From an uncultured Prevotellaceae bacterium (GTDB lineage Bacteria > Bacteroidota > Bacteroidia > Bacteroidales > Bacteroidaceae): a stretch of 25,227 nt of DNA. The position numbers were made by a program, and so were the translations under genes. Positions 7,053 to 24,432 of the stretch are shown piece after piece. Position 1 is the first letter of the stretch. Each line of letters starts with the position of its first letter. Location: contig CAMJLI010000012.1 of NCBI GenBank assembly GCA_946406585.1, forward strand, positions 1-25,227. Reading direction: 5' to 3'. The notes beneath the pieces are model-generated. The model searched no databases, was not told the DNA's origin, and saw nothing but the letters and a program-made list of their open reading frames with translations.

Positions 7053-10000
7053 ATGATGAAGAAAATTTCAGTAGCAGTGATGGCAGTATTGCTGACAACG
7101 GGTGCCTTTGCCCAAAAGAAGGAAATGAAAGCCTACATGGTGGCTGATGCACATCTCGACACGCAATGGAACTGGGACGTGCAGTCCACCATACGTGAAC
7201 ATATCCGAAACACTCTCAACCAAAACCTCTTTCTCTTCAAGCAATACCCCCACTATGTCTTCAATTTCGAGGGGGCTGTCAAGTATTCTTGGATGAAAGA
7301 GTATTACCCCTATGAGTATGAGGAGATGAAGCGCTATGTGGCGCAAGGCAGATGGCATGTGACAGGGAGCAGTTGGGACGCCAACGAAACCATCATCTGT
7401 TCGCCTGAGTCGTGGCTTAGGAACGTGCTGCTTGGCCAGACGTTCTATCGCACGGAGTTCAATACCGAGGGGACAGACATCTTCCTGCCCGACTGCTTTG
7501 GCTTTGGCTACACCTTGCCCACGCTGGCGGCGCATTGCGGCCTCATCGGTTTCTCGTCGCAAAAGCTCATGTGGCGCACAAAGCCTTTCTATGAGGGTGG
7601 CAAGCGCTATCCGTTCACCGTTGGCCTATGGCAGGGCATCGATGGCAGTCGCATCATGATGACGCACGGATTCAACTATGCACAGAGATGGGAAGATGCC
7701 GACTTGTCGAAGAACGAGAATCTGATAAGGGAAATCAAGGAAAGTCCTCTCAATGTGGCATATAGGTATTATGGCACCGGTGATGTTGGTGGTTCGCCCA
7801 ACTTGGAGTCTGTGAGGGCGGTGGAGAAGGGCATCCACGGCGATGGGCCGGTGCAGGTCATCAGTGCCACGAGCGACCAGATATACAAGGATTTCATGCC
7901 TTTCGACAAGCATCCGGAACTGCCGGTCTTCGATGGCGAACTGCCAATGGACGTGCATGGCAATGGCTGCTATACGTCGCAGGCTGCGATGAAGCTCTAC
8001 AACAGGCAGAACGAACATTTGGGCGATGCTGCCGAACGCTCCTCCGTGATGGCAGAATGGTTGGGTGGCGCTTCCTACCCCAGTGCATTGCTCACCAATA
8101 CCTGGCAACGCTTCATCTGGCATCAGTTCCACGATGATGTCACCGGAACGTCTATCCCACGTGCCTATGAGTTCTCTTGGAACGATGAGTTGCTTGCACT
8201 GAAGAAGTTTTCCGATGTCCTCACACATGGCGTGTCAGCCATTGCCGCCCGCATGGACACGCAGGTGAAGGGTATGCCTTTGGTAGTGTATAACAACGAG
8301 GCTTTCGTGGCTCGTTCGGTGGCTGAAGTGAAGGTGCCCGAAGGACGCGACTATGTCGTGGTGTCGCCGGAGGGCAAGAAGGTGAAGTCGCAGGTCGTGG
8401 AGCGCGATGGTGAGTGTTTCCTGTTGTTTGATGCTCAGGTGCCTTCGGCAGGTGCCGCGGTCTATGACGTTCGTCAGGCAGGTAAATACAAAGGCAACAC
8501 CAAATCTTCAGGACGGCATATTGAGTCGTCGAGATATTTACTCGAAGTGAATGAGTATGGAGACATCGTGTCGCTCATCGACAAAAAGGCCGGCAAGCAA
8601 CTGGTGGCACCTGGGAGAAGCATCCGTTTGGTGGTGTTCGATGACTGTCGTTCCACACAGTGGCCGGCATGGGAGATACAGAAAGCCACGCTCGACAAGC
8701 AGCCGCAGCCCGTTCACGACGATGTCAGGGTGACCGTCGAGGAAGGTTCGCTGCGCCACACCATCATAGTGGAAAAACGATATGGCGACTCCAAAATCAT
8801 GCAGCGCATACATCTTTATGAAGGCAACTTGTCGGAGAGGATAGATGTGGAGAATGTGGTGGATTGGAGTTCTGCCAATGCATTGCTCAAGGCAGAGTTC
8901 CCGCTGAGTGTGGCCAACGAGGAGGCATCATACGACATCGGACTGGGACATGTGCGCCGCGGAAACAACAAGGACAACTTGTTTGAGGTGTATGCCCACC
9001 AATGGACTGACCTCACCGACCGCTCCGGCAACTATGGAGTGACACTTCTCAATGATTCGAGATATGGTTGGGACAAACCGGATGACAACACCATGCGACT
9101 CTCCCTGCTCTATTCTCCGAAGACAGGAAACGGGTATTCCTACCAAGCCCGTCAGGATTTCGGACACCATGTGTTCACCTATAGCATCGTGGGGCATGAA
9201 GGTGCATTGGATGCTCCCAAGGCAGTGCGTTGTTCCGACATGCTCAATAGTCCGTTGCGCACCTTCATTGCCGACAAGCACAAGGGTGACTTGGGCAAAA
9301 CTTTCTCTTTCGTCTCTACAGACAACGAACATATAGTGGTGCGCGCCCTGAAAAAGGCAGAGGTGAGCGATGAGTATGTGGTGCGTGTCTATGAGATGGG
9401 TGGAAAACAGGCGCAGAAGGCAAGTCTTGTCTTCGCCGGCGACATAGTGAAGGCTGTGGAGGCTGACGGAACGGAGCGCACCTTGAAGAATGCTTCTTTC
9501 AATGGCCGCTCACTTAATGTGGAGATAAATCCCTTTGGAGTGAGAACCTACAAGTTGACGCTTGGCAAACAAGCACAGGAAAAGGTGGAAACACAGGTGC
9601 TGCCTTTGTCTTTCGACCGTCACTGTTTCAGCTTCAATGAATTCAGGAATGCAGCCAATTTCGAGGGAGGCTATTCCTATGCAGCAGAATTGATGCCTGC
9701 CAAGGGCATTACTGTAGGGGATGTGCCTTTCCGCTTTGGCGAGATGGATGCCGCCAATGGCATGTCCTGCAATGGCAACGTGCTCAAGTGGGAGTCGGAC
9801 AAGGATTACAGGCACTTGTACCTTCTTGTGGCTTCCGACCTCGGCGACCGCATGGCAGAGTTCGTGGCGGGAAAGACAAAACAGCAATTCCAAGTGCCAT
9901 TCTACTCCGGGTTCATAGGGCAGTGGGGGCACGACAACCACACCGAGGGCTTCTTGAAGGATGCAGAGGTGGCATACGTGGGCAGTCACCGTCACTCACC

Positions 10001-10628
10001 GAATGGAGACGAACCTTATGAGTTCACTTACATGTTCCGCATCCGCATCGACCTGCCCAAAGGGGTGAGACAGGTGTCTCTTCCCGACGACAGCCATGTG
10101 GTGGTGTTCGCTGCCACCTTGGCAAACGACAGGGATGACGTTGCACCTGCCGCCGCTCTTTTCAAGACTTCTTTGAAAGAGAATGGAAAGACGCTTGGCG
10201 GACAACAGGAGGAACAGCCTGCCAATCTGCTGAAGGATGCTCGGATAATCGCCGTATCTGGCGAGGTGAACGATGCCGAAAGAGCAATCTTCCTGGTGGA
10301 TGGTAAGGACGACACCAAATGGTGTGATGCAGGAAAGAAGCCCAACTTTGTGACGTTCGACCTTGGCAAGCCTGTCGAGGTGAGTCGTTGGCGACTCATC
10401 AATGCGGCATGTGAACATTCTTCGTATGTCACCCGCACTTGTCTGTTGCAAGGGCGCAACAGCGAGACAGAGGAGTGGCAGACGCTCGACATGTTCGACG
10501 GCAACCGGAACAATGTGGTCAACCGTGCTTTCCAACCCACAAGTGTGCGCTATGTGAGGCTCTTTGTGGTGAATCCCACACAGGGCAACGAACCTGCTGC
10601 ACGCATATATGAATTTGAGTTGTTCTGA
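7053..10628 (+). CDS. GH38 alpha-mannosidase with C-terminal F5/8-type (CBM32-like) domain
   Basis: A 1191-residue zinc-dependent retaining alpha-mannosidase that removes alpha-mannose from mannan or N-glycan-type chains. A signal peptide (about 1-20, TTGAFA-Q) suggests periplasmic location; there is no lipobox or sorting tail. The catalytic region has DAHLDTQWNW, giving zinc ligands His34 and Asp36; LPDCFGFGYTLP, with nucleophile Asp147; and WHQFHDDVTGTS, with probable ligand His360. The helical and large C-terminal beta domains follow to about residue 845. A further beta domain occupies about 850-1045, and residues ~1057-1191 resemble a discoidin/F5/8 type C module (DTKWCD, VTFDLGKPVEVSRWRL, RYVRLFV). 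It is last in its operon and is followed by a terminator. The length suits the large Bacteroidetes GH38 enzymes, some of which serve in yeast-mannan loci. Linkage preference cannot be read from sequence. Confidence 0.93.
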   Translation: MMKKISVAVMAVLLTTGAFAQKKEMKAYMVADAHLDTQWNWDVQSTIREHIRNTLNQNLFLFKQYPHYVFNFEGAVKYSWMKEYYPYEYEEMKRYVAQGRWHVTGSSWDANETIICSPESWLRNVLLGQTFYRTEFNTEGTDIFLPDCFGFGYTLPTLAAHCGLIGFSSQKLMWRTKPFYEGGKRYPFTVGLWQGIDGSRIMMTHGFNYAQRWEDADLSKNENLIREIKESPLNVAYRYYGTGDVGGSPNLESVRAVEKGIHGDGPVQVISATSDQIYKDFMPFDKHPELPVFDGELPMDVHGNGCYTSQAAMKLYNRQNEHLGDAAERSSVMAEWLGGASYPSALLTNTWQRFIWHQFHDDVTGTSIPRAYEFSWNDELLALKKFSDVLTHGVSAIAARMDTQVKGMPLVVYNNEAFVARSVAEVKVPEGRDYVVVSPEGKKVKSQVVERDGECFLLFDAQVPSAGAAVYDVRQAGKYKGNTKSSGRHIESSRYLLEVNEYGDIVSLIDKKAGKQLVAPGRSIRLVVFDDCRSTQWPAWEIQKATLDKQPQPVHDDVRVTVEEGSLRHTIIVEKRYGDSKIMQRIHLYEGNLSERIDVENVVDWSSANALLKAEFPLSVANEEASYDIGLGHVRRGNNKDNLFEVYAHQWTDLTDRSGNYGVTLLNDSRYGWDKPDDNTMRLSLLYSPKTGNGYSYQARQDFGHHVFTYSIVGHEGALDAPKAVRCSDMLNSPLRTFIADKHKGDLGKTFSFVSTDNEHIVVRALKKAEVSDEYVVRVYEMGGKQAQKASLVFAGDIVKAVEADGTERTLKNASFNGRSLNVEINPFGVRTYKLTLGKQAQEKVETQVLPLSFDRHCFSFNEFRNAANFEGGYSYAAELMPAKGITVGDVPFRFGEMDAANGMSCNGNVLKWESDKDYRHLYLLVASDLGDRMAEFVAGKTKQQFQVPFYSGFIGQWGHDNHTEGFLKDAEVAYVGSHRHSPNGDEPYEFTYMFRIRIDLPKGVRQVSLPDDSHVVVFAATLANDRDDVAPAAALFKTSLKENGKTLGGQQEEQPANLLKDARIIAVSGEVNDAERAIFLVDGKDDTKWCDAGKKPNFVTFDLGKPVEVSRWRLINAACEHSSYVTRTCLLQGRNSETEEWQTLDMFDGNRNNVVNRAFQPTSVRYVRLFVVNPTQGNEPAARIYEFELF

Positions 10629-10876: not shown

Positions 10877-10909
10877 ATGATGAAACAACTGTGCCTTGGC
10901 ACAACATAG
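10877..10909 (+). other. Tiny leader ORF containing a palindrome
   Basis: Just after the -7 box at 10861 there is a 10-codon frame reading MMKQLCLGTT, ending 28 bases before the GH76 start. Inside it TGTGCC-TT-GGCACA (10890-10903) is a perfect 6-bp inverted repeat that could be an RNA hairpin or an operator. Neither translation nor function can be shown from sequence alone. Confidence 0.2.
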
Positions 10910-10937
10910 CTTAAACACACTTTTCAACTATCAAAGG

Positions 10938-13694
10938 ATGAGACTCTTTTTTACCACATTCCTGATGCTTGCCGTGGCTGCAAATGCCGCGGCTGCCGTA
11001 GAGAATGGAAAGACTTACCGCATCGTGCCTGATGGCAATGGCAAGTCGTCGCTTTTCGTGAAGAATGCTTCCAAGGCAGACAAGACGCCAGTGGTGGTGT
11101 GGACGGAAACAAACGTACCTGCCCAACAGTGGACCATCGTATCCCTCGAAGGTGAGACGGTGGCACTGAAAAACGTCTATACGGGACTGTATCTCGACAC
11201 CAAAGACAACATGCTGGTGCAAAACATGCACCCTGCAGCATGGAACCTCGATGTCGTGGATGAAGGCAACAACGAATACAACATGAGGCAGAATGCATTT
11301 CTTGGCGTCACGGGAACGAACGACGGACAACAACCTTCGTTGGGCAGGCAGATGGTGTGGCATTTCGTGGAAGTGGAACCGCAGATGTCGTTTGACGACC
11401 ATGCCAGGCAAAGGATGCTCGATGCTTTCCTCGCTCAATTTCTTCAAGACAAGGGAAATGGCTACCGCACCTTCGTCAACGGGGGATGGGGTGAGGCGGA
11501 GACCCTTGAGGCAGTGCTCGACTTCTATGAGGCTTCTGGCGACCGCCGTTACCTTGGGGTGTTCGAGGCGTGCTACGACTACATGCGCTATCATGTGGGT
11601 CCCAATTGGGATGGTGGTGCCGTTGTGGCGGGATACAACTGGTATGGATATGATTTCAATGATGATGTCATGTGGCTCATCATTGCTGCTGCCAGGGCTT
11701 ATCTCATCACAGGAAAACAGAGTTACCTCAACGATGCAAGGCGCAATTTCGACTTGATATGGAACAGGGCATACCTGGGCTATGTCGGACTGTTGCGTTG
11801 GGCTGAGCACACAGGCGACAGGAATGGTGCCAATTCGTGCATCAATGGTCCTGCCGAGGTGGCGGCATGCTACATCGGACTGGGCACGGGCGATGAGTCA
11901 TACTTCGAAAAGGCACGTGAGTTGTACTCCAACCAGAGGAAGTATCTTTTCGAAACCTATACGGGCAAAGTCTACGACAGCGTGGTGTTGAATCCTGCTG
12001 ATGGGTCTATAACCGACCGCAACACCTGGGCTTCTACTTACAACCAGGGCACCATGCTGGGGGGAGCCTTGTTGCTCTACAAGCATTATGGCGATGAGCA
12101 ATACAAGACAGATGCCTCGCGCATAATCGCCTATGCCAAGACCGCTCTCTGCAATAGCGACGGAGTGGTGCGTGTTTGTCAGAATGCTGATGGTGATTTC
12201 CAAGGATTCAAGGGCATACTGATGCGCTACGCTGGTTTGTATGCTGCTCATTTCAACGATGCAGAATATCAGGCTTGGATACAAGCCAATGCCTTCCATG
12301 CCTACAACAATGTCAATTCCAAGGGCTTCGGACATTCTGCATGGCTCGCCAAGGCTGACGAAAACCTGAGGTATGGCAATGTGGACTATGGCGCTTCAGG
12401 GTCGGCTTTCGGAGCTTCTACAGCCATCACGGCGGCTTGTGCCACAGCTCTCCAACAAAGGATGGGACAAACCATTTCCTATGAGGCCGAGGATGCACAG
12501 CGCACCGGTTCGGCTTCCGTGCATGTTGATGGCAACACCGGAGGAAAATATGTGTCGGGACTGGACAACGGCAATGGAATGCTGAGGTTCAATTGCCAGA
12601 TTCCAGCCGAGGGGGACTATTTGCTCGATGTGTATTTCCTTTCTTACCAGTCGCGAAACTTGCAAGTCACCGTCGGTGACAGGAAATACACCTTCACCTG
12701 TCCGAGCGTCTCCACATGGGACAACATCGCTGACGAGGGAAGGGCGACGCTGAAAGTCAACCTGAAGGCAGGACAGACTTTCTGCATCCTCGCCAATCCC
12801 AATGGGTCGGCTCCCAATATTGACAAGATTTCTTTCACTCGGGTGCTTGAAGCGCAGGACACCAAGACAAAGATGATGGCGGGGGATGCCGAGGTGGCAG
12901 AAAAGGGCATGCTGTCGTTTGCCTACGACGCTCCGCAGGCCGGACATTATCGGGTTGACGTGACCTACAAGCATTCCGAAAACCGTAACGTGTATCTCGC
13001 CGTCAATGATGCTGATGCTTTGATGACTGTCTTCGCCACCACCGGTGGGATGAAGGCCGTCCGCCCGCTCTTCGTCACGTTGCAGAAGGGTAGGAATACG
13101 TTGCTCTTCACAGCCACACCCGACTTGCCGGAGGTTGAATCTGTCGAATTGTCATTCCTTGCCCCTGTGCCTGATGTGATGGAGGCAGAATTTGCTTCTA
13201 CCAAAGGACAGGTGGCCATCGCCAAGGATACGCATGCCTCTGGAGGAAAATACTTGAGAGACATGGGAAATGGCGCCGACAATACTGCTACTTTCAGATA
13301 CGATGCTCCTGTCGGGGGAAAGTATGAATTGCAAATCACTTATTTCTCTGCACAGAACAGGCAGATGTTTGTTAGAGTGAACAATGGTGACAAGGCCACC
13401 GCTGTCTTTGAGGGAACTGGCAGTTGGAGCGCCGTCTCTGCCACGACGAAGTCCGTGGAGGTGACCCTGAAGTCGGGAACCAACATCATAACATTGGGTA
13501 ACGACTCGGAAAGGACGCCTTATGTTGACAAGATTGCATTGTCGCTGAAGGATGAGAGCAGCGTGCAAGCGATAGAAGCAGCAAGCAACCGCGAGGTGGC
13601 TTGGTTCACGATAGGGGGCATGACGGCTGGTTCTCACCCGCATCAAGGCTTGCTCGTCAGTAAAAACCAGAAAATCATTTTTAAATCAAAATGA
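10938..13694 (+). CDS. GH76 endo-alpha-1,6-mannanase with N-terminal lectin-like and three C-terminal binding modules
   Basis: A secreted enzyme predicted to cut the alpha-1,6-mannan backbone. The ATG at 10938 gives 918 residues and places a clean signal peptide at the N-terminus (LMLAVAANAAAA); a TTG 42 bases upstream is less likely because it precedes that signal. Residues ~20-150 resemble a ricin-type lectin fold (YTGLYLDTKDN, QQWTIV). The (alpha/alpha)6 GH76 domain spans ~150-510 and carries YGYDFNDDVMWLIIAAARAY, with the catalytic pair Asp242-Asp243. Three related beta-sandwich modules follow: ~513-635 (ISYEAEDAQRTG), a degenerate one at ~645-745, and ~748-871 (MEAEFASTKG), resembling CBM35/CBM6. 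The end (WFTIGGMTAGSHPHQGLLV, then a basic tail) resembles a weak sorting domain. The gene overlaps the next by 4 bases (ATGA). Family GH76 is secure; exact linkage is inferred from the family. Confidence 0.92.
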   Translation: MRLFFTTFLMLAVAANAAAAVENGKTYRIVPDGNGKSSLFVKNASKADKTPVVVWTETNVPAQQWTIVSLEGETVALKNVYTGLYLDTKDNMLVQNMHPAAWNLDVVDEGNNEYNMRQNAFLGVTGTNDGQQPSLGRQMVWHFVEVEPQMSFDDHARQRMLDAFLAQFLQDKGNGYRTFVNGGWGEAETLEAVLDFYEASGDRRYLGVFEACYDYMRYHVGPNWDGGAVVAGYNWYGYDFNDDVMWLIIAAARAYLITGKQSYLNDARRNFDLIWNRAYLGYVGLLRWAEHTGDRNGANSCINGPAEVAACYIGLGTGDESYFEKARELYSNQRKYLFETYTGKVYDSVVLNPADGSITDRNTWASTYNQGTMLGGALLLYKHYGDEQYKTDASRIIAYAKTALCNSDGVVRVCQNADGDFQGFKGILMRYAGLYAAHFNDAEYQAWIQANAFHAYNNVNSKGFGHSAWLAKADENLRYGNVDYGASGSAFGASTAITAACATALQQRMGQTISYEAEDAQRTGSASVHVDGNTGGKYVSGLDNGNGMLRFNCQIPAEGDYLLDVYFLSYQSRNLQVTVGDRKYTFTCPSVSTWDNIADEGRATLKVNLKAGQTFCILANPNGSAPNIDKISFTRVLEAQDTKTKMMAGDAEVAEKGMLSFAYDAPQAGHYRVDVTYKHSENRNVYLAVNDADALMTVFATTGGMKAVRPLFVTLQKGRNTLLFTATPDLPEVESVELSFLAPVPDVMEAEFASTKGQVAIAKDTHASGGKYLRDMGNGADNTATFRYDAPVGGKYELQITYFSAQNRQMFVRVNNGDKATAVFEGTGSWSAVSATTKSVEVTLKSGTNIITLGNDSERTPYVDKIALSLKDESSVQAIEAASNREVAWFTIGGMTAGSHPHQGLLVSKNQKIIFKSK

Positions 13695-14671
13695 ACAGAA
13701 TATATTGCTATTTTCCCTTCCTAATGTTGCTGCTTTGCTGTAGCCTGTCATGCACGGCACAGCATCGGCGCAGTGGCAATCCCATCTTCCCTGGGTGGTA
13801 TGCCGACCCAGAGGCTGTAGTGTTCGGCAATCGGTGCTGGGTGTTCCCCACCTATTCTGCGGAATACGACAAGCAGTTGTTTTTTGATGCCTTCTCGTCG
13901 CGTGACCTCATGAAATGGAAGAAGCATCCCAAGGTGCTGACAAGCGACAACGTAAGTTGGGCGCGGAGAGCCATGTGGGCTCCTGCTTTGGTGGAAAAGG
14001 ACGGCTTGTATTATCTCTTCTTCTCTGCCAATGATGTGCATGAGGGAGAGGTGGGTGGCATCGGCGTGGCGGTGAGCAAAAAACCGCAAGGCCCCTACAA
14101 GGATGCCCTCGGAAGACCGCTCATACAGCAGATAGTGAATGGCGCACAACCTATCGACCAGTATGTGTTCCGCGATGATGATGGTCAATATTACATGTAC
14201 TATGGTGGTTGGGGGCATTGCAATGTGGTTCGGTTGGCCGACGACTTGCTAAGTCTCTTGCCCTTTGCCGACGGTTCGGTATACAAGGAGGTGACACCCG
14301 ACAAATATGTCGAGGGTCCTTTCATGATGAAATACCACGGAAAGTATTATTTCATGTGGAGCGAAGGAGGGTGGGGGCAGCCCGATTATTGTGTTAGTTA
14401 CGCCATCAGCGACTCGCCACTCGGTCCTTTTCACAGGATAGGGAAGATACTTGAACAAGACCCCAGCGTGGCAACGGGTGCCGGACATCATTCGGTGGTG
14501 AAGGGGCGTGGAGAAGACGAGTGGTACATAGTATATCACCGGCGACCGCTCACGGAAAAGGCTGCCAATTCGAGGCAGACATGCATCGACCGCTTGTATT
14601 TTGACGAGAAAGGATTCATCAAACCCGTGAAAATCACTTCCGAAGGTGTGGAGGCTACAAGGTTGAAATAA
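13691..14671 (+). CDS. GH43 family glycosidase (beta-xylosidase/arabinofuranosidase/galactofuranosidase type)
   Basis: A 326-residue single-domain five-bladed beta-propeller enzyme of family GH43, with inverting hydrolysis of furanose or xylose side chains expected. Catalytic candidates are in the right order: Asp39 in WYADPEA as base, Asp156 in QPIDQYVF as pKa modulator, and Glu208 in YVEGPFMM as acid. The N-terminus has a hydrophobic segment ending CCSLSCTAQ; Cys21 could be lipidated but the lipobox is weak, and cleavage after TAQ is an alternative. There is no binding module or sorting tail. Its start overlaps the stop of the GH76 gene (ATGA), indicating translational coupling and a shared substrate. 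Some GH43 subfamilies release beta-galactofuranose, which decorates some fungal galactomannans; this is only a possibility here. Confidence 0.85.
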   Translation: MNRIYCYFPFLMLLLCCSLSCTAQHRRSGNPIFPGWYADPEAVVFGNRCWVFPTYSAEYDKQLFFDAFSSRDLMKWKKHPKVLTSDNVSWARRAMWAPALVEKDGLYYLFFSANDVHEGEVGGIGVAVSKKPQGPYKDALGRPLIQQIVNGAQPIDQYVFRDDDGQYYMYYGGWGHCNVVRLADDLLSLLPFADGSVYKEVTPDKYVEGPFMMKYHGKYYFMWSEGGWGQPDYCVSYAISDSPLGPFHRIGKILEQDPSVATGAGHHSVVKGRGEDEWYIVYHRRPLTEKAANSRQTCIDRLYFDEKGFIKPVKITSEGVEATRLK

Positions 14672-14707: not shown

Positions 14708-16720
14708 ATGCAAAAACATAGAAAAGAGCTTTTATTGGTCCTGATGATGGTGGTGGGCATGCACAGGGCTTATGCTGTAGACTTCTCCTACCAGATAGCA
14801 TTGAAGAATCCTGGCAATCCTGCCATGGTTTACAATCTTCACAAAAACGATGCTGAACTGCTCTCACGGCAAGCCATACCTGTAAAGGTAACAGAAAAGG
14901 TGGAGAAAACTGGGGAGGACTACAGGTTGTCGGTGACACTCACTGCACACGAGAAGGTATATTTCAATTTGGGAATAAAGGCAAATACCAGGTTCGACAC
15001 CAATCAATGTGAGTTCTACCTGCCAGGGTTCTGGTACCACAAAAACCTGCGTTCACCCGAGCAGGCTCCTTCTTTCCATACTTCCAAGAGTTGGAATTTC
15101 AGGGAAGACCGTCTCTCGGCACCCCTCTCGGGTGTCTTCGACGTGCAGTCGGGCAAATCTCTCTCCGTGATGCGGGTTCTCGACAGTCGGCAGGCAGATG
15201 CCTTGCTCACTCATCAGGGGGGAGAGGTGATCCTAAGTGGTAAAAGCACGGTGGGGTATTTGGGTTTTGACAACGAGACTGGTCAGGCCAAAATATCTTT
15301 CGGATATCCTTTCGTGGAAACACCCAAGAGATACATCCGCAAACTAACCCTCGTAAGTCCCATTTGCACTTTCGCCAAACTTGAGAAAGGAGAGCAGATC
15401 ACTCTCACATGGCTCATTCATGAAGGTCAGGCGACCGACTACGGACAATATGTTGCCGACACCTGGAACTACTGTTTCGACCGTCTGCAACCCATGGCAA
15501 TGCAACCGCTTTATTCGCCCGACCAGGTGAAGGCACAGCTGTCCAACTATTTCAAAATGGCATACGTAGACAAATATCCTCTCAAGTACCATTCCGGCAT
15601 AAGCATCAGGTGCGACGACTGCAAACCCGTTGACCATGTGCAGTTGGGCTTCTGTGGACGAGTGCTGCTCAATGCCTTCAACTGCCTTGAGTATGGAGAG
15701 CAGACAGGTGACGCACAACTCGTCAGGATGGGGCAGGCCATCTTCGACAGTTGGCTGGAAAACGGTTTCACCGCCAAGGGATATTTCAAGGAAGACATGC
15801 ACATCGCCCAGGGCATTCCAGCCGATGCCGATGTGATACACAGCATTCGCGAGCAATCGGAGGCTGTCTATGCCGTCCTCCACTATCTGGCGTATGAGCG
15901 CAAGCAAGGACGCACGCACAAGGAGTGGGAAGGGAAGATGAGAACCCTCCTTGATGCCATGATGGGCTTGCAGGAGGATGACGGGCATTTCCCGAGGAAA
16001 TATCGCGATGATGGCACGCACGTAGATGCTTCGGGCGGTTCCACTCCGAGCGCCACTTCCACCTTGGTGATGGGCTACAAGTATTTCAAGGACAAGAGAT
16101 GTCTGAAAGCAGCGAAACTCTCCGTTGACTACCTGGAAAAGAACATCATATCGAAAAGCGACTATTTCTCTTCCACCCTCGATGCCAACTGTGAGGACAA
16201 GGAGGCTGCCATCAGTGCTGTCACTGCCACCTATTACCTTGCCATGGTGACCAAAGGCAAGGAGCGCGGGCACTATGTGGACCTGTGCCGGCAGGCGGCT
16301 TATTTCGCACTGTCATGGTACTACCTTTGGGATGTTCCTTTCGCACCCGGACAGATGTTGGGCGACCTCGGTTTCAAGACCCGTGGATGGAGCAATGTCT
16401 CTGTGGAGAACAACCACGTGGATGTGTTTGTCTTCGAATTGCATCATATCGTGAAATGGTTGGCAGAGACTCTTGGTGAGAAACGGTTCGGACAGATGGC
16501 GGATGTAATACACACTTCGCTATGCCAGCTCCTGCCCACACAGGACAGGCTCTGCGGAATAGGTGTGCCAGGATACAATCCGGAAGTGGTGCAACACACC
16601 CATTGGGATTATGGGAAAAATGGGAAGGGGTTCTACAACGACATCTTCGCCCCGGGATGGACCATAGCCTCGCTGTGGGAGTTGTATTCTCCACGGCGAA
16701 CAGCAGATTTCCTTCGTTGA
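14708..16720 (+). CDS. Secreted protein of unknown family, likely (alpha/alpha)-barrel glycosidase
   Basis: A 670-residue exported protein (signal peptide about 1-23, ending HRAYA) that I cannot place in a named family. Residues ~25-245 look beta-rich (QIALKNPGNPAMVYNL, ITLTWLIHEGQ). Residues ~260-660 look like repeated helix pairs, as in six-hairpin glycosidases: LGFCGRVLLNAFNCLEYGEQ, SIREQSEAVYAVLHYLAYE, LLDAMMGLQEDDGHFPRKY, SAVTATYYLAM. Conserved-looking acidic clusters, DANCEDKEAA (Asp492, Glu496, Asp497, Glu499) and SVENNHVDVF (Glu567), are candidates for catalysis. Nine or more cysteines are present. No lipobox or sorting tail is seen, so the periplasm is likely. It lies 36 bases after GH43 and is the last gene of the GH76 unit, so a role in mannan side-chain or oligosaccharide processing is inferred. 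Other possibilities are a polysaccharide lyase or a non-catalytic relative. Confidence 0.7.
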   Translation: MQKHRKELLLVLMMVVGMHRAYAVDFSYQIALKNPGNPAMVYNLHKNDAELLSRQAIPVKVTEKVEKTGEDYRLSVTLTAHEKVYFNLGIKANTRFDTNQCEFYLPGFWYHKNLRSPEQAPSFHTSKSWNFREDRLSAPLSGVFDVQSGKSLSVMRVLDSRQADALLTHQGGEVILSGKSTVGYLGFDNETGQAKISFGYPFVETPKRYIRKLTLVSPICTFAKLEKGEQITLTWLIHEGQATDYGQYVADTWNYCFDRLQPMAMQPLYSPDQVKAQLSNYFKMAYVDKYPLKYHSGISIRCDDCKPVDHVQLGFCGRVLLNAFNCLEYGEQTGDAQLVRMGQAIFDSWLENGFTAKGYFKEDMHIAQGIPADADVIHSIREQSEAVYAVLHYLAYERKQGRTHKEWEGKMRTLLDAMMGLQEDDGHFPRKYRDDGTHVDASGGSTPSATSTLVMGYKYFKDKRCLKAAKLSVDYLEKNIISKSDYFSSTLDANCEDKEAAISAVTATYYLAMVTKGKERGHYVDLCRQAAYFALSWYYLWDVPFAPGQMLGDLGFKTRGWSNVSVENNHVDVFVFELHHIVKWLAETLGEKRFGQMADVIHTSLCQLLPTQDRLCGIGVPGYNPEVVQHTHWDYGKNGKGFYNDIFAPGWTIASLWELYSPRRTADFLR

Positions 16721-16825: not shown

Positions 16826-16874
16826 ATACAAACATCATTATATTATGCGCGAGGGGAGATAAGTGCTAAATTTG
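16826..16874 (+). promoter_or_regulatory. Promoter of the susC-like unit with upstream element
   Basis: TAAATTTG (16867-16874, followed by CAAAA) fits the -7 consensus and would start transcription near 16881, leaving a ~33-base leader before ATG 16914. ATACAA (16826-16831) and TATTATG (16841-16847) lie 41 and 26 bases upstream, mirroring the GH76 promoter. No TTG is present at -33. The leader has AAGTCTAA twice (16886-16893 and 16896-16903). The position of the box rules out translation from the in-frame GTG at 16863. Confidence 0.6.
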
Positions 16875-16913
16875 CAAAAAAATCTAAGTCTAAGAAAGTC
16901 TAACAATATTGAT

Positions 16914-19900
16914 ATGATGAAAAAGCATTTATCCAAGTATTGCCGTTCTTGGCTACCGGCGGGCACTGCCATGCTGTGCATCTTCACCATGCTGGTGGCT
17001 GAACCGCTTTTTACGCAGACTGTTGCACAAGTTCAGCAGACTACGAAGATGACACAAGTGACCGGACTCGTCACCGACCAGGCGAAAGAACCACTGGTGG
17101 GTGTTACCGTATCCGCAGTGGGTACGAGCAACCTTGCCATCACCGACGTTGATGGCATGTTCCATATCGATGTGCCGGCACAAAGCAGTGCCATGCTCGA
17201 GTTCTCTTATGTGGGATTCAAGAAGACTCAGGTTAAGGTGAATGGCTCAAAACTCCTCAATGTGATGCTTGAGGAAGAGGCCAATGAGTTCAACGAGGTG
17301 GTGGTTACTGGTTATAGCAGCCAGAAGAAGGCGTCCATCATCGGCTCCATCGAAACCATCAACCCAACAGAATTGAAATTTGGCACCACGCGAACATTGT
17401 CAAACAACCTCGCGGGCAAATTGAGCGGTGTGATTGGCATCCAGCGCTCTGGTGAACCGGGATACGACGATTCCAATTTCTGGATTCGTGGTATTTCCAC
17501 CTTCTCCGGCAACAACAACCCGCTCATACTTATTGATGGTGTGGCGCGCGACCTAAATAATGTGGACGTGTCGGAGATTGAGTCGTTCTCCATCTTGAAG
17601 GATGCTTCTGCATCTGCCATGTATGGTGTGAGAGGTGCCAATGGTGTCATCGTCATCACCACAAAGCGAGGTAAGATTGGAGCACCACAGGTGAGGTTCC
17701 ATCTGGAGCATTCCATCAACGAACCCACGAAGATGCCAGAGTTCCTCAGTGCACCCGACTACATGACACTGCTCAACCAACTGGCATTGCAGGATGGCCT
17801 GGCACAACCTTTCACGCAATTGCAAATCGACCGTACAAGGTCGGGATACGACCCGGACCTCTACCCTGATGTCAATTGGGTGAAAGCCATCACCAAGGAC
17901 TATGCCTACACCACTCGCGGCAACCTCGACATCAGCGGCGGTTCCGACTTCCTGCGCTATTCCATCGTCGCTTCCTATTTCAAGGAGACGGGCATACTGC
18001 AGCAGGACAAGAGCCTGCTCGTGGACAATGCCACCAACAACCAGCAGTTCAACCTCCGCACAAACATCGACATGGATGTGACGAAGACCACAATGCTCAG
18101 GGTGAACATCGGTGGATACCTCAACAGGTTCAAGAAGCAGCGTTGCAACACCGATGGCGCCTTTGGTGAGGCATTCCGCACCTTGCCTTTCGTTCATCCC
18201 GCAAGATATAGTGATGGTGCCATACCTGTGATTTCAAACAGGGCAAACCCATGGCGCACGGTAACACAGCAGGGCTACGACTTCATCACATCGTCGAAAC
18301 TACAAACGCTCTTCAGCGTGGAGCAGGACCTGAAGATGATAACCAAGGGCCTGAAGGCGAAGGCTCTCTTCAGCTTCGACAGATGGAACCGCAGCTCGCG
18401 CGGACGTACTGCCAACCCGGGCACCGTCTTCCCTGCCACAGGGCGCGACGAGGAGGGCAACCTCATCTACAGCCAGTTTGAGACTGGCGACGAGTCGATG
18501 GGCAGTTACAACAACGGTGAATACGGCAACACCAATGTCTATTTCGAGGCTGACGTGATGTACAACCGCCGTTTCGGGAAGATGGATGTGGATGCCATCA
18601 TGCTTTACAACCAGCAGGCATACGACGACGGCAACATCCAGGACTTCCGCAAGCAAGGTATTGCAGGACGACTCTCTGGCACCTACGACAACCGCTATGT
18701 GGCTGAATTCAACTTCGGATACAACGGTTCGGAAAACTTCGCCAAAGGCAAGCGCTTCGGCTTCTTCCCATCATTCGCCATCGGTTGGCTCCTCAGTGAA
18801 GAACCTTTCATGGAGAAGACGAAGAAGATATTCCACAAGATCAAGTTCCGCGCCAGTATCGGACAGGCGGGTGATGACAACATCGGTGGACGACGCTTCG
18901 CATATCTCGGAACTCTTTACACCGACCAGGAAGGTTATTCTTGGGGCACCACAGGCCAGCGCAGCTATAGCGGCATCACTGAGGGTGACATAGGTGTGGA
19001 CAACCTCACTTGGGAAACCGTCACCAAGAAGAACATCGGCTTCGAACTGGGACTGTTCAACATGATCGACTTCAACTTCGACCTTTTCAAGGAGAACCGC
19101 AAGGACATCTTCATGCAGCGAACCATCATCCCCACACAGAGCGGTTTCGTCACCTCGCCTTGGGCAAATTACGGCAAGGTGTCCAACCATGGCGTGGAAA
19201 TGACTATCAATGTCCACAAGCAGTGGAACAAGAACTGGTTCACTTCGGCTTACGGCAACTTCACTTATGCCAAGAACAAGGTGATAGAGAAGGATGAGCC
19301 AGAAGTGCTCAAGGGCACGCACCGCTCACAGACAGGACGCTCGATGAACGAACTGTGGGGACTGACGGCAGAACGTCTCTTCATGGAGAGCGACTTCAAT
19401 GCCGACGGCTCGCTCAAGGACGGAATCCCTTCGCAGGAGAGTGTGGGTGCCGTGACCTTGCACCCGGGTGACATCAAGTATGTCGATGTCAATCATGATG
19501 GCTTGATCACTGAGGAGGATGAGGGATACATCGGTGGAACAGAAGACCCGAGAATCGTTTACGGATTCGGTGGCGTGGTCAGCTACAAGAACATCGACTT
19601 CAATTTCTTCTTTCAAGGAGCTGGCGACATGTACCGCGTGATTGGCGGACAGCCCTACTTCCTGCCGGGTGGCGGTACCACGACAGAAGGCAATGCCTAT
19701 TCATACAACATCGACGACAGGTGGACCGACACCAACAAAGACCCTTATGCTTTCTGGCCAAGGCTCAGTTACGGTCCCAATGTCAACAACTACCGTCGCT
19801 CCACTTGGTGGAAGAAGGACATGAGCTTCCTCAGATGCAAGACCATAGAGGTGGGATACACCTTCCCCAAGGCATGGTTTGAGAAACTGTACGTGAAGAG

Positions 19901-20039
19901 CTGCCGCGTGTTTGTGAGCGGAAACAACCTCTTCTGCCTCTCCTCGTTCAAACTATGGGATCCTGAGTTGGGCACCAACGACGGACTGAGATACCCCATG
20001 AACCGTTCTGTGATGTTCGGAATTGATGTGAACTTTTAA
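16914..20039 (+). CDS. SusC-like TonB-dependent outer membrane glycan transporter
   Basis: Imports oligosaccharides across the outer membrane together with the SusD-like lid protein. The ATG at 16914 (or the adjacent 16917) gives about 1041 residues; it is chosen because the promoter box lies between it and the upstream GTG. After a long signal peptide comes a carboxypeptidase-D regulatory-like domain (VTGLVTDQAKEPLVGVTVSA), a junction rich in acidic residues (EFNEVVVTGY), and the plug domain with the SusC signatures NNPLILIDGVARD and ILKDASASAMYGVRGANGV. The remainder is beta-barrel, with a Ca-binding-like loop (DVNHDGLITEEDE) and a C-terminal aromatic residue (FGIDVNF). Length is normal. 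It is followed after 30 bases by the susD-like gene. The substrate, probably alpha-mannan oligosaccharides, is inferred from the neighbouring GH76 and GH38 genes. Confidence 0.96.
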   Translation: MMKKHLSKYCRSWLPAGTAMLCIFTMLVAEPLFTQTVAQVQQTTKMTQVTGLVTDQAKEPLVGVTVSAVGTSNLAITDVDGMFHIDVPAQSSAMLEFSYVGFKKTQVKVNGSKLLNVMLEEEANEFNEVVVTGYSSQKKASIIGSIETINPTELKFGTTRTLSNNLAGKLSGVIGIQRSGEPGYDDSNFWIRGISTFSGNNNPLILIDGVARDLNNVDVSEIESFSILKDASASAMYGVRGANGVIVITTKRGKIGAPQVRFHLEHSINEPTKMPEFLSAPDYMTLLNQLALQDGLAQPFTQLQIDRTRSGYDPDLYPDVNWVKAITKDYAYTTRGNLDISGGSDFLRYSIVASYFKETGILQQDKSLLVDNATNNQQFNLRTNIDMDVTKTTMLRVNIGGYLNRFKKQRCNTDGAFGEAFRTLPFVHPARYSDGAIPVISNRANPWRTVTQQGYDFITSSKLQTLFSVEQDLKMITKGLKAKALFSFDRWNRSSRGRTANPGTVFPATGRDEEGNLIYSQFETGDESMGSYNNGEYGNTNVYFEADVMYNRRFGKMDVDAIMLYNQQAYDDGNIQDFRKQGIAGRLSGTYDNRYVAEFNFGYNGSENFAKGKRFGFFPSFAIGWLLSEEPFMEKTKKIFHKIKFRASIGQAGDDNIGGRRFAYLGTLYTDQEGYSWGTTGQRSYSGITEGDIGVDNLTWETVTKKNIGFELGLFNMIDFNFDLFKENRKDIFMQRTIIPTQSGFVTSPWANYGKVSNHGVEMTINVHKQWNKNWFTSAYGNFTYAKNKVIEKDEPEVLKGTHRSQTGRSMNELWGLTAERLFMESDFNADGSLKDGIPSQESVGAVTLHPGDIKYVDVNHDGLITEEDEGYIGGTEDPRIVYGFGGVVSYKNIDFNFFFQGAGDMYRVIGGQPYFLPGGGTTTEGNAYSYNIDDRWTDTNKDPYAFWPRLSYGPNVNNYRRSTWWKKDMSFLRCKTIEVGYTFPKAWFEKLYVKSCRVFVSGNNLFCLSSFKLWDPELGTNDGLRYPMNRSVMFGIDVNF

Positions 20040-20069: not shown

Positions 20070-22004
20070 ATGATGAAAAAGATAAAGATTTATATATTCG
20101 TGGTGGCAGCATTGATGGCGATGCCGCTCACGCAGTCCTGTTCCGACTATCTGGACAAGGAGCCTGACACAGAATTGACCACCGAAATGGTGTTCGAGAA
20201 CCGCGACAAGGTGTATTCTTGGTTGAGTTACGTCTATAACATCATCCACAATCCCGACAAGTGGGCTCTCACAGCCGATGGATATGAGGTGTTCGCAGAC
20301 GACATCACACCCTCTGCCAGATGGCAGCAGTGGGACTGGGGTGGGGTGATTCCCAAGATCCTCGGACAATGGACCATCAACTCCACATGGGGAGGCAACC
20401 TCTGGCACATGATGCCGAGATACATCCGTCATGGATACATCTTCAACAACATGGTGAAGGCCATGCCCGACCACGACTTGCCTCAATCGGAAATCGACAA
20501 CATGAAAAACGAGGTGAAGTTCCTGTGTGCCTATGCATGGTGGCAGATGGCGGAAAACTACGGAGGAATACCATTCACTCCCGACTACATCGCACCTACT
20601 GATTTCGAACTCTCCGACCTCATGGTGGGGCAGTCGAAGTTCGACGACGTGGTGGACTACTGCGACAAGCAGATGTATGAGGCTGCCATGGCTCTGCCTG
20701 CCGTCTATGACGACCCGGCAAAATATGGACGCATCAACCGCATCATGGCTCTCACCGTACGCTCGCGCATGTTGCTCTTCGCTGCCAGTCCGCTGGTGAA
20801 TGGCAACAAATGGTACGTGAACTATGTCAACGACAAGGGAGAGCAGATTTTCAATTCCACCTACGACCCACAGAAATGGACAAAGGCCGTGGATGCTTGC
20901 AGGCTTTGCATCGAGGAGGCTGAGAAGGCTGGATATGCTCTCTATACCGAGGCAGGTCCTCAAGGCGGCATCGACCCGTTCCTCTCCACATACAACGTAC
21001 ACATCAAGAAATGGAGCGAGGGCAACCGCGAAATCACCTTCCCCGTGACCAAGGGCAACAGCTATCGCGACACATTCCTGCGCACGGTGTCGGTGCGTGA
21101 ATACGGCGGCGGCAACGGACTGGGTGTGTATCAAGGACTCGTGGATGCTTTCTTCACCAGGAACGGACTGCCAATCTCCGACCCCAACTCAGGATATGTG
21201 GAGGAGGGCTTCTCCACAGTGGTTGACAACCGCTCCAATGTCACTGCGTGGGAGTTTGGAACAGGTGTGCCTGGAGAGGTGACCTCACGTGGCACCTACA
21301 ACATGTATTGCAACCGCGAACCGAGATTCTACAATGCCGTGTCATTCCACGGCTCATGGCTCGCAGTGGGCAACAGGAAGTACAACTTCTTCAATGGCGG
21401 ACGCGACAATGTGCAGACATCGTCGCCACACGACGCTCCACAGAATGGATATCTGGTGAGAAAGGGACTTAATGTGCTCGACAATTATCTCACTGGTTCC
21501 GTCACCGACAGACAAGGTTTCACCTACCGCCTGGCATTCACTTATCTCGACTATGCCGAGGCTCTCAACGAAGCTTCCAATAGCAGCGATGCACGCCAGT
21601 TGGCTCTTGACTACGTGAACCGCATCCGCGAGCGCGCAGGGGTGAGGAAGTATACTTTGAACGCAGTGCCTCTCACCGATGATGAGTATATTCAGGTGGA
21701 AAACACACAGGAGGACGTGAGAAGGGTGGTGCGTGCGGAGCGACGTGTGGAACTCTGCTGCGAGAACAACCGCTGGTACGACATCCGCAGATGGAAGGAT
21801 GCTGAGAACTTGCCTGAAATGTGCGGCGAAGACTATGGCATGAACTTCCAAGGGCGCACCCAACAGGATTTCTTCAAGCGTACGGTCTATCAGACACGCG
21901 TGTGGAAACGCCAATACTACTGGATGCCTATCTACATTGATGAATACGAGAAGAATCCCAACCTCCGTGAGGCTCCCTTCTGGGTTGTGGAGAAAGGGGA
22001 ATAA
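20070..22004 (+). CDS. SusD-like (RagB/SusD) surface glycan-binding lipoprotein
   Basis: A 644-residue outer membrane lipoprotein that pairs with the SusC-like transporter and delivers glycan to it. The signal peptide ends in a lipobox (MPLTQSC, Cys24 lipidated), followed by SDYLDKEPDTELTTEMVF, the typical mature SusD N-terminus. Helical tetratricopeptide-like regions follow (SEIDNMKNEVKFLCAYAWWQ), and the C-terminal part has the family motifs YLDYAEALNEA, VNRIRERAGV, VRAERRVELCCENNRWYDIR and YWMPIYIDEYEKNPNLR. The length is slightly above the usual 500-600 residues. ATG 20070 and 20073 are adjacent; either leaves the signal peptide intact. The susE-like gene follows after 35 bases. The family call is secure; binding residues are not assigned. 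Confidence 0.95.
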   Translation: MMKKIKIYIFVVAALMAMPLTQSCSDYLDKEPDTELTTEMVFENRDKVYSWLSYVYNIIHNPDKWALTADGYEVFADDITPSARWQQWDWGGVIPKILGQWTINSTWGGNLWHMMPRYIRHGYIFNNMVKAMPDHDLPQSEIDNMKNEVKFLCAYAWWQMAENYGGIPFTPDYIAPTDFELSDLMVGQSKFDDVVDYCDKQMYEAAMALPAVYDDPAKYGRINRIMALTVRSRMLLFAASPLVNGNKWYVNYVNDKGEQIFNSTYDPQKWTKAVDACRLCIEEAEKAGYALYTEAGPQGGIDPFLSTYNVHIKKWSEGNREITFPVTKGNSYRDTFLRTVSVREYGGGNGLGVYQGLVDAFFTRNGLPISDPNSGYVEEGFSTVVDNRSNVTAWEFGTGVPGEVTSRGTYNMYCNREPRFYNAVSFHGSWLAVGNRKYNFFNGGRDNVQTSSPHDAPQNGYLVRKGLNVLDNYLTGSVTDRQGFTYRLAFTYLDYAEALNEASNSSDARQLALDYVNRIRERAGVRKYTLNAVPLTDDEYIQVENTQEDVRRVVRAERRVELCCENNRWYDIRRWKDAENLPEMCGEDYGMNFQGRTQQDFFKRTVYQTRVWKRQYYWMPIYIDEYEKNPNLREAPFWVVEKGE

Positions 22005-22039
22005 TAGTGGTTTGGAATATAGTTAAGCAACAAAGACTT

Positions 22040-23167
22040 ATGAAATACTTGCATTATGTTTTCAGTACACTGTGCCTGATGGCATTAGTGTCGTGCAACG
22101 AGGACCCGGAGTTCTTCACTTTGGAATCACATCCTGACGAGATGCACATAAAGAGTTCTGTAGAGTCGGTGGTTCTCAACAAGGGAATTGCCAATCAAGA
22201 GGCCATCACCTTCACTTGGGATGCCGCCTCAAGTCCCTTGTCGAGTGCCGATGAGGTGACCTACAAGCTATGCTTCTATCCCACAGCAATAAAAGACGAC
22301 AAGTCTGACTACATCGACGTGGGAACAAACCGCACCCTGACGCTCACACACGACCAACTCAATTCCATGGTGGCAAAGTGGGCTCTCCCGGGCATGCCGG
22401 TCAACGTGACTGCCCAGGTGCTGAGCAATGTCCATAACGAGAGCAAATACGTGAAGCCTGAGGTGTCAACAGTGGAGTTCACTGCCACAGGATATGAGAA
22501 ATACCCGGTGAGCCTGTTCATGACCATCACCGACGATGCTGGGAATGTGTCGTCGCAGAGACTTGAACAAAGGCAGTTGGGAACGGGCATCTACGAGGTG
22601 TCGTTCAACATGGTGCCTTGCAACTTCCACTTCACCACTACTGCCGAACCTTATCCTGCTTATGGCTCTGCTGGCGGAGACAAATTGGAATATGTGGTTG
22701 ATGGCAACATCAAGGAGTTCAGAAACGAGGCTGTTGGCATGCGCACCATCATCGTGGACACCAACCCGGAATACAACGACTGCAGGGTGCTCAACATCGT
22801 CCAACTGCCCACGCCAGGACTGATATGGATTTGCGGCAATGGCTGTTCGGTGGGATGGAACACCAACACTTCTTCTGGAAGAATGGAAATGGTGGGCTCG
22901 GTACGTGAACCTTACCTCTATGCCTGGACCGGTGACTTCACTGCCGGTGGCGAATTCAAGATAGGTCTTGGCAATGGATGGGGCGACCAGTTCTTCTATG
23001 CTCCTGTTGCTAATGCCGACCCGCTCACCAACCATGAGTTGCCAATGTATCGCTTCCAGGATGATGGTGGCGACCTGAAATGGGTGCCTTCCGTGAGTGG
23101 AAGATACACACTGACGCTCTGTCTCCTCGCTGATGACATGTGGACGAAATTCGAACCAGCTAATTAG
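22040..23167 (+). CDS. SusE-like outer membrane glycan-binding lipoprotein
   Basis: A 375-residue lipoprotein expected on the cell surface beside SusC/SusD, holding glycan chains. ATG 22040 is preferred over the in-frame GTG at 22007 because it begins the signal peptide directly (LCLMALVSC, lipobox with Cys19). Residues ~20-165 form a fibronectin-III-like domain typical of SusE (AITFTWDAASSPLSSADEVTYKL, VNVTAQVLSNV). The C-terminal region (~270-375) resembles a SusE/F glycan-binding domain: LIWICGNGCSVGWN, PYLYAWTGDFTAGGEFKIGL, FEPAN. Several Trp residues (for example in GCSVGWN and GNGWGDQ) are candidates for sugar stacking. The gene ends 8 bases before the downstream GH43 start and is almost certainly cotranscribed with it. 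It differs from the other SusE/F-like protein at 6113, which lacks a lipobox. Confidence 0.8.
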   Translation: MKYLHYVFSTLCLMALVSCNEDPEFFTLESHPDEMHIKSSVESVVLNKGIANQEAITFTWDAASSPLSSADEVTYKLCFYPTAIKDDKSDYIDVGTNRTLTLTHDQLNSMVAKWALPGMPVNVTAQVLSNVHNESKYVKPEVSTVEFTATGYEKYPVSLFMTITDDAGNVSSQRLEQRQLGTGIYEVSFNMVPCNFHFTTTAEPYPAYGSAGGDKLEYVVDGNIKEFRNEAVGMRTIIVDTNPEYNDCRVLNIVQLPTPGLIWICGNGCSVGWNTNTSSGRMEMVGSVREPYLYAWTGDFTAGGEFKIGLGNGWGDQFFYAPVANADPLTNHELPMYRFQDDGGDLKWVPSVSGRYTLTLCLLADDMWTKFEPAN

Positions 23168-23175
23168 TCTTGATC

Positions 23176-24432
23176 ATGAATAGCAAATTCAGGAAATACA
23201 TCATGACTTTCACTCTGGCATTGGGCACGCTCTTGTGTGCTCATGCCGGAGATGGCACATACACCAACCCGGTGACAAAGTGGAGCCTGCCCGACCCTAC
23301 GGTCATAAAGGCTGCCGATGGGTATTTCTATCTCTATGCCACTGAGGACACCCACAATGTGCCCATCTACCGCTCCAAGGACCTTGTGGTGTGGAGATAT
23401 GTGGGCACGGCGTTCACTGATGCCACCCGCCCCATGGACTTTGTGCCAAAGGGTGGAATATGGGCTCCCGACATCAACTATATTGATGGCAAATACGTGC
23501 TTTACTATTCCAAGTCGGAGTGGGGCAAGACATGGGAGTGCGGCATTGGCGTGGCTGTGAGCGACCGCCCGAACGGTGGCTTTCACGATGCTCACAAACT
23601 GTTCATATCAAGCGAGGTGGACATAGAGAACTGCATCGACCCGTTCTTCATCAGGGTGGACTCGTGCAACTATCTGTTTTGGGGCTCGTTCCACGGCATT
23701 TATGGTGTCCAACTCTCCGACGACGGCCTGTCCATAATGGAAGGTTCCAAACCAAGGAAAATAGCTGGTGGACTCATCGAGGGCACCATGATTGTGAAGC
23801 ACGACAATTTCTTCTATCTCGTTGGTTCGGCTGGCACTTGCTGCGAGGGGGCCAATAGCACCTATAGGCTGGTCGTGGCTCGTTCGCGCAGTCTTTTCGG
23901 ACCATACGTGGACAGGAATGGGAAAGGGGCAATAGGCGACAATTTCTCTCCGCTGCTCAACAAAAGTCCGGAGGTGTATGGACCGGGACACTGCTCTGAG
24001 TTCGTCACCGATGATGCCGGACAGACATGGATGCTCTATCATGGCTATCAGGCTTCCAACGTAGATGCTGGCCGTGTGGTCTACCTCGACAAAATCACGT
24101 GGGGCAGCGATGGATGGCCGCAGGTGCAGGGCATGCGCCCCTCCACAGAGGCTGATGCCCCTGTCTTTGGCACTGAGGCTGGCATCTCTGAAAAAAAAAC
24201 TGAACAATCTTACCTTATCAATAGTGTCGACGCCGGTGGCTATTTCCGTATCGACAGTCCTGACGACAACCTCTTCTCGTGGCAACTTTACAATGTCTCG
24301 GGAAGGGTGGTGCTCAATGGGATGTCGAGAAATATGGCCGTCGTCGACACTTCGTCGATCCAGCGGGGGCTGTACATGATAAGGGTGAATGGCTCTGCCG
24401 GCACTTATTGTGGAAAAGTGTGGAGACAGTGA
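23176..24432 (+). CDS. GH43 family glycosidase with type IX-like C-terminal sorting domain
   Basis: A 418-residue secreted GH43 enzyme, part of the susCDE operon. ATG 23176 is chosen over the TTG at 23170 because it starts the signal peptide (TLLCAHA-GDG). Catalytic candidates are Asp40 in SLPDPTVI as base, Asp155 in NCIDPFF as pKa modulator, and Glu202 in LIEGTMIV as acid. GIWAPDINYIDGKYVLYYS and GPGHCSEFVTD are typical of the endo-arabinanase and related branch of GH43. From about residue 340 a linker leads to SWQLYNVSGRVVLNG and GLYMIRV, a type A sorting-like domain used by the type IX secretion system, so the enzyme may act outside the cell. A run of nine A residues (24191-24199) lies in the linker. 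Release of side chains from mannan is inferred from the operon; the sugar is unknown. Confidence 0.86.
   Translation: MNSKFRKYIMTFTLALGTLLCAHAGDGTYTNPVTKWSLPDPTVIKAADGYFYLYATEDTHNVPIYRSKDLVVWRYVGTAFTDATRPMDFVPKGGIWAPDINYIDGKYVLYYSKSEWGKTWECGIGVAVSDRPNGGFHDAHKLFISSEVDIENCIDPFFIRVDSCNYLFWGSFHGIYGVQLSDDGLSIMEGSKPRKIAGGLIEGTMIVKHDNFFYLVGSAGTCCEGANSTYRLVVARSRSLFGPYVDRNGKGAIGDNFSPLLNKSPEVYGPGHCSEFVTDDAGQTWMLYHGYQASNVDAGRVVYLDKITWGSDGWPQVQGMRPSTEADAPVFGTEAGISEKKTEQSYLINSVDAGGYFRIDSPDDNLFSWQLYNVSGRVVLNGMSRNMAVVDTSSIQRGLYMIRVNGSAGTYCGKVWRQ

Follow-up and report, generated by a model that had tools for sequence, protein, structure and literature searches.

A protein outside Pfam and NCBIfam, with a predicted mutarotase-like sandwich and (alpha/alpha)6 barrel, beside GH43 genes in a Prevotellaceae alpha-mannan-type locus

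A contig of an uncultured Prevotellaceae bacterium (CAMJLI010000012.1, assembly GCA_946406585.1) was analysed over a stretch of 25,227 nucleotides, here called the window, in which we give the working name X to the 670-residue protein encoded at 14708-16720 on the plus strand. X has thousands of homologues and no family model in Pfam or NCBIfam, is predicted to join a galactose-mutarotase-like beta sandwich to an (alpha/alpha)6 barrel, carries four acidic residues that are invariant across a diverse alignment, and has glycoside hydrolase (GH) family 43 genes as its most regular companions. We are confident that X, which is probably exported, is a carbohydrate-active enzyme, and consider it probably a hydrolase, not a lyase or epimerase; galactofuranose is put forward as its target tentatively.

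Loci of this kind contain a recurrent gene that annotation overlooks; its more than 6,500 homologous clusters lie, as far as tested, outside the Pfam and NCBIfam models. Should X be a galactofuranosidase, it would account for the removal, by gut bacteria, of a sugar that, to our knowledge, mammals do not make, and would be of use as a tool on galactomannan and on mycobacterial galactan; if X were to prove a member of GH182, that family would be extended to Prevotella-type mannan loci, with its likely catalytic acids and GH43 partner named.

Gene, family status and distribution of X

The reading frame of X opens with ATG and comprises 670 codons and a stop. The open reading frame (ORF) list and the Pfam matches of its neighbours (Table 1) confirm the frame, coordinates and co-directional GH76-GH43 setting given in a preliminary description of this DNA. 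The GH76 stop and GH43 start overlap by 4 bases (ATGA, 13691-13694), 36 bases separate GH43 from X and 142 bases separate X from SusC, and between 13600 and 17000 neither promoter-like nor terminator-like sites exceed their number in shuffled sequence (4 vs 3.5 and 3 vs 3.0 respectively). Minus-strand ORFs overlap X, one of 309 residues at 15344-16273 and the ends of two more, and one minus-strand frame, when read out, contains stops; it is the plus frame that thousands of homologues match. By eye, the N-terminus resembles a type I signal peptide, with a hydrophobic stretch followed by AYA/VD, and X is presumably periplasmic.

X has no match in Pfam at E<=10, in NCBIfam at E<=1 or among PDB sequences (phmmer) at E<=1, and the earlier remark that no family could be recognised holds for these three collections; no NCBIfam model matches its orthologues P0129 and P0130 at E<=1. 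Homologues of X form 6,546 clusters at E<=1e-3, from 7,994 candidates scored. A precomputed Pfam domain is present in none of the 120 clusters listed among these, and where a name is given it is 'hypothetical'. Other source names in the match list of P0129 are six-hairpin glycosidase (P0265), glycosyl hydrolase (P0311) and thioredoxin-domain protein (P0280). No description of the family was found among the literature matches listed, which comprised titles and abstract beginnings of open-licence PMC text. For the proposition that X represents an unregistered family the balance is even: it is unnamed in Pfam and NCBIfam, and GH182 was compared by description only.

Within the same taxonomic family, 44 of 251 genomes match X, 24 of them through near-full-length orthologues (E<1e-200), and in samples of the phylum and class the figures are 2 of 296 and 2 of 295, each pair including the nearest genome. 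That genome, G001, has 42% of the window's sampled words in common and carries X at 95%. In the genus of genome G457, X is matched in 54 of 119 genomes, 53 of which hold orthologues, in 59 copies. Remote relatives (P0121-P0127; loci L026, L028, L029, L030, L031, L032 and L002) are 17-20% identical to X over the alignment. They include at least three further unnamed groups, one near a GH78 gene (L128) and another beside a rhamnogalacturonan-I (RG-I)-lyase-type gene (L130), and in some relatives a GH43, GH2 or other domain forms part of the polypeptide (P0149, P0216, P0248). Ten neighbours of remote relatives were scanned: five have no Pfam family at E<=1e-4 (one in L129, two each in L131 and L132), and the remainder are GH78, GH78 fragment-like, RG-I-lyase-type, oxidoreductase and lipocalin-like proteins.

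Predicted fold and invariant acids

The AlphaFold2 model of X (predicted local distance difference test, pLDDT, 89.6) has a mutarotase-like beta sandwich and an (alpha/alpha)6 barrel, joined by a linker helix at residues 245-260. The beta-rich front and helical-hairpin back of a two-domain barrel protein, which the preliminary description had proposed, are thus right as a prediction (residues 25-241 and 271-669). In the barrel, short-turn helix pairs alternate with six long loops (285-318, 353-379, 422-445, 482-495, 536-577 and 605-648), which, by the usual (alpha/alpha)6 connectivity, would form the active face.

Conservation was assessed in an alignment (A4) of 110 proteins picked for diversity from the 353, of an initial 370, that are 560-740 residues long, P0121-P0130 being left out; a further alignment (A5) joins window X with 45 of the 80 orthologues from named loci described below. 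Asp492, Asp497, Glu499 and Asp572 are invariant in A4 (110/110), down to 15% identity, and are also kept in two further distant relatives, P0126 and P0127. Hence the acidic cluster named earlier (Asp492, Glu496, Asp497, Glu499 and Glu567) stands in part: all five residues are present and three are invariant, but Glu496 and Glu567 are conserved in the orthologue clade only (weighted 0.206), and Asp572 had been overlooked. Glu496 and Glu567 were accordingly rejected as superfamily-wide catalytic acids. The 80 named loci were retrieved with the patterns DANCEDK and Y[LM]PGFWY[HR], a choice that in part predetermines the invariance of residues 492-498 among them; A4 was not selected in this way. 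Twenty barrel positions are conserved at >=97% (weighted), 18 of them in the long loops or the first turn after the fourth loop, which together make up 189 of 396 residues. We infer that the catalytic acids are drawn from the four invariant residues.

Kinship with GH76 was considered since the A4 profile matched Aman6, and was rejected; the match centres on one hairpin region, where the HMMER and hhalign registers disagree. X has no match to the GH76 profile PF03663 (cut-off 25.9 bits) at E<=10; three remote relatives score 14.5-20.7 bits, below the cut-off, and PF03663 is carried by 2 of the 120 clusters listed for the remote relative P0122. GH76 enzymes have an adjacent catalytic Asp-Asp pair, and that of the alpha-1,6-mannanases (4boj, 4v1s, 6u4z) is without counterpart in X, in which, unlike GH76, an N-terminal sandwich precedes the barrel. 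By hhalign, the pair of the window GH76 (residues 256-257) lies opposite Asp373-Ala374 of X, with Asp373 outside both the invariant and the >=90% columns of A4; the HMMER register, extrapolated, places it at Gly444-Ser445, a hairpin away, which makes this a test of moderate strength. GH43 (PF04616) has a five-bladed propeller; Pfam finds no PF04616 in X, and the model is a sandwich and helical barrel. Relatives of X have sub-threshold Pfam matches to GH127, GH88 and GlcNAc 2-epimerase. For GH127 (PF07944), a family of beta-L-arabinofuranosidases, X itself has no Pfam match, and the remote relatives P0122 and P0127 score 14.7 and 17.9 bits against a cut-off of 24.9. Families absent from the lists of similar folds are not thereby excluded.

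Gene companions and proposed activity

Neighbours were counted within four ORFs and on the same strand in named loci, the best 80 of 358 relatives, clusters being named through similarity to window genes or through one scanned member. SusC-like genes lie near X in 49 loci and GH43 in 47 (a second GH43 cluster in 8), followed by SusD in 26 (a second cluster in 9), GH76 in 21, SusE in 20, GH38 in 10, GH125 in 7 and GH92 in 4. Homologues of the endo-arabinanase-like GH43 at the far end of the window (GH43-A; >=40% identity over >=60% of the domain to 23170-24432) lie on the strand of X in 42 of the 80, and in 34 of the 53 with at least 9 kb on each side. Among the 119 genomes of the genus of G457, with GH43-A called at E<=1e-60 and at most 18 candidates per genome scored, 48 contain both GH43-A and X, 5 contain only X, 4 only GH43-A and 62 neither; GH43-A lies within 10 kb of 37 of the 59 X copies, always on the same strand, and within 300 bases of 24. 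In genome G303 a GH43 domain and X share a single stop-free ORF (P0128). X-bearing frames of 981-1022 residues in G833, G846, G866 and G903 look like fusions too; in the last three, the GH43-A match lies in a frame of equal length beside X.

Fifteen further loci extend this picture. Six (L114, L115, L117, L119, L121, L124) have the order SusC, SusD-type, large GH43-type, two or three small GH43-type genes and X, and in three (L113, L116, L117) a galactose mutarotase (GalM) follows X. Mutarotase is near X in 8 of the 80 named loci, giving 11 of 95 loci overall, and in 6 of the 8 it is fused to GH43-A. Such fusions stand beside or near X in L093, L101, L102, L104, L106 and L105 (11859-14105), the last confirmed by Pfam and NCBIfam. 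GH76 has no match in 8 of 21 X-bearing genomes, and mannan is therefore not the common denominator. The alpha-mannan setting proposed earlier covers part of the picture; GH43 is the most regular companion of X, with alpha-mannan machinery or galactose mutarotase as occasional ones.

We propose that X is a glycoside hydrolase in which a mutarotase-like sandwich at the N-terminus precedes an (alpha/alpha)6 barrel, whose loop face would bear the catalytic acids, and that X and GH43 enzymes would act together on short furanoside chains. The candidate substrate here is fungal-type galactomannan, whose alpha-mannan core bears galactofuran side chains in beta-(1-5)/(1-6) linkage (PMC6968653, excerpt), because such a core and such side chains unite the GH43, the mannan genes and the galactose mutarotase. 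GH76 and GH38 would dismantle the alpha-mannan, and GH43 and X would remove the beta-1,5/1,6-linked galactofuranose. An alpha-mannan polysaccharide utilisation locus (PUL) of Salegentibacter also has one GH43 (PMC9213526, excerpt). Taken together, an exported GH with acids on the barrel loop face, a GH43 partner acting on furanosides and fungal-type galactomannan at this locus form a reading to which we give slightly less than even credence. A bolder version is doubtful, namely that X founds an unregistered GH family (LDxxCxDKE...D acids) with a regular, sometimes fused, arabinanase-like GH43 partner, is dedicated to galactofuranose-bearing glycans, and provides the step, otherwise missing, in which gut and rumen Bacteroidota debranch fungal galactomannan and further galactofuranose polymers.

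Several observations weigh against this proposal. GH43 spans enzymes for several sugars, and hence cannot by itself identify the sugar; the closest counterparts of GH43-A are endo-arabinanases, and in L118 and L122 an alpha-L-arabinofuranosidase-type gene lies near X, past one opposite-strand gene. GalM is near X in those 11 of 95 loci only. GH43-A is missing from 19 of the 53 named loci with full flanks and, at E<=1e-60, from five X-bearing genomes; the search scored no more than 18 candidates per genome, and the Fisher test on co-occurrence ignores kinship. GH43 genes are moreover common, each of 21 genomes having between 2 and 32 matches, and the neighbour counts have no random-PUL control. 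In the model, two segments at the proposed active site, 488-493 and 635-641, have a pLDDT under 50, and mean conservation of the loop face does not differ significantly from that of the rest of the barrel (p 0.076). The X orthologue P0280 carries the source name 'thioredoxin domain'. Finally, remote relatives lie near GH78 and an RG-I-lyase-type gene, so that the superfamily probably acts on several substrates.

Other activities for the same fold have to be considered. The top whole-length Foldseek match to the model is the L-rhamnose-alpha-1,4-D-glucuronate lyase BACCELL_00875 of polysaccharide lyase (PL) family 27 (5no8, 5nok), which resembles X over residues 24-665 at 9-10% identity and a root-mean-square deviation of 6.0; both have a beta sandwich and then an (alpha/alpha)6 barrel (PMC8377490, excerpt), the PL27 architecture, in X as predicted. 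X could on this basis be a PL27-like lyase that removes a sugar linked to uronic acid, and in one locus, L125, GH88 lies near X. We regard this as improbable: the A4 profile matches 16 PDB sequences at E<=5 with no PL27 among them, none of the 13 window ORFs scanned matches GH88 (PF07470) at E<=0.1, and the acid-rich invariant set is more hydrolase-like. Of the six-hairpin sugar enzymes (GH88, GH127, AGE), GH88 and AGE share the barrel fold of the model. The least probable of the alternatives is that X is an AGE-type epimerase or isomerase, or that it binds without catalysis. AGE enzymes have a catalytic His pair in the barrel, whereas A4 contains one near-invariant His (H570) only; the probable signal peptide and the place among hydrolase genes speak against both ideas, and four invariant acids argue against mere binding.

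With X read as a hydrolase, the questions are its sugar and its novelty. L-arabinofuranose side chains would suit the endo-arabinanase affinity of GH43-A and the arabinofuranosidase-type gene with GH43 near X in L118 and L122, and alpha-L-arabinofuranose and beta-D-galactofuranose have their ring stereochemistry in common. We consider this unlikely, given that GalM neighbours and GH43-GalM fusions point to galactose and that galactomannan is the better match to the alpha-mannan neighbours. As to novelty, the main uncertainty is GH182, to which X may belong. Its founder, reported in 2023, is the exo-acting galactofuranosidase BACFIN_04787 of Bacteroides finegoldii, then of an unnamed family and encoded in a Bacteroides PUL; acting with a GH43_31 enzyme, it achieves complete hydrolysis of beta-1,5/1,6-galactofuranan (PMC10115798, excerpt). 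X is likewise unnamed in Pfam, associated with GH43 and frequent in the genus of G457, and it occurs in Dysgonomonas gadei (P0265), a culture of which released galactose from mycobacterial arabinogalactan (PMC10115798, excerpt). The likeness to BACFIN_04787 in PUL origin and joint action with GH43 is one of description, and the lack of an NCBIfam match for X, P0129 and P0130 tells weakly against membership, if NCBI has modelled GH182. Membership of this known family, with the same activity, is a plausible reading that we consider somewhat improbable.

Other features of the window and related loci

All genes from GH31 to GH43-A lie on the plus strand, in the order GH31, GH38, GH76, GH43, X, SusC, SusD, SusE, GH43-A (Table 1). 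Beyond the GH43 adjoining X, Pfam finds two in the window, one on the minus strand and cut by the window end. In locus L109, from the uncultured Prevotellaceae RUG112, X has the place and identity that it has in G001, and the gene order is that of the window.

Table 1. Coordinates of X, its parts and neighbouring genes in the window
Feature	Position	Strand	Basis
Protein X, 670 aa, uncharacterised exported (probable) two-domain protein	14708..16720	+	ORF list, AlphaFold2 model
Probable signal peptide, X residues 1-24	14708..14779	+	By-eye reading; model helix 2-17
N-terminal beta domain, residues 25-241, galactose-mutarotase-like sandwich (predicted)	14780..15430	+	AlphaFold2 model, fold comparison
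(alpha/alpha)6 barrel, residues 271-669 (predicted), six long loops between hairpins	15518..16714	+	AlphaFold2 model, Foldseek
Asp492-Glu499 (DANCEDKE), just before / at start of helix 496-514	16181..16204	+	D492, C495, D497, E499 invariant in A4
Asp572, invariant acid	16421..16423	+	Alignments including A4
GH43, nearest PDB sequence 3qz4, immediately upstream of X	13691..14671	+	Pfam E 5.1e-52
GH76 with ricin-type and CBM35 modules, DD pair at residues 256-257	10896..13694	+	Pfam E 3.7e-37
GH43-A, endo-arabinanase-like, type IX secretion system (T9SS) tail	23170..24432	+	Pfam, NCBIfam
GH38	7053..10628	+	Pfam
GH31	3617..6046	+	Pfam
SusC-like TonB-dependent transporter	16863..20039	+	Plug and carboxypeptidase-like domains
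SusD	20070..22004	+	Pfam
SusE-like protein	22007..23167	+	Pfam

Upstream of GH31, positions 443-3307 (+) encode a 954-residue protein with no match in Pfam or the PDB at E<=0.1 and a sole, weak and implausible match in NCBIfam, which may represent a second unnamed family. A relative lies directly upstream of X in L061 (44%), and another (34%) two genes from the remote X relative in L130. Between GH31 and GH38, a 303-residue protein (6113-7024, +) has a sub-threshold SusF_SusE match (21.9 vs 27.5 bits) and is perhaps an extra surface glycan-binding protein. In eight loci (L052, L056, L063, L070, L077, L079, L082, L084) an X orthologue directly follows a protein of 677-730 residues, and SusC-like genes and a distant GH43 are also present; of these eight proteins the one scanned, that of L079, is a BNR-repeat (sialidase-like) protein.
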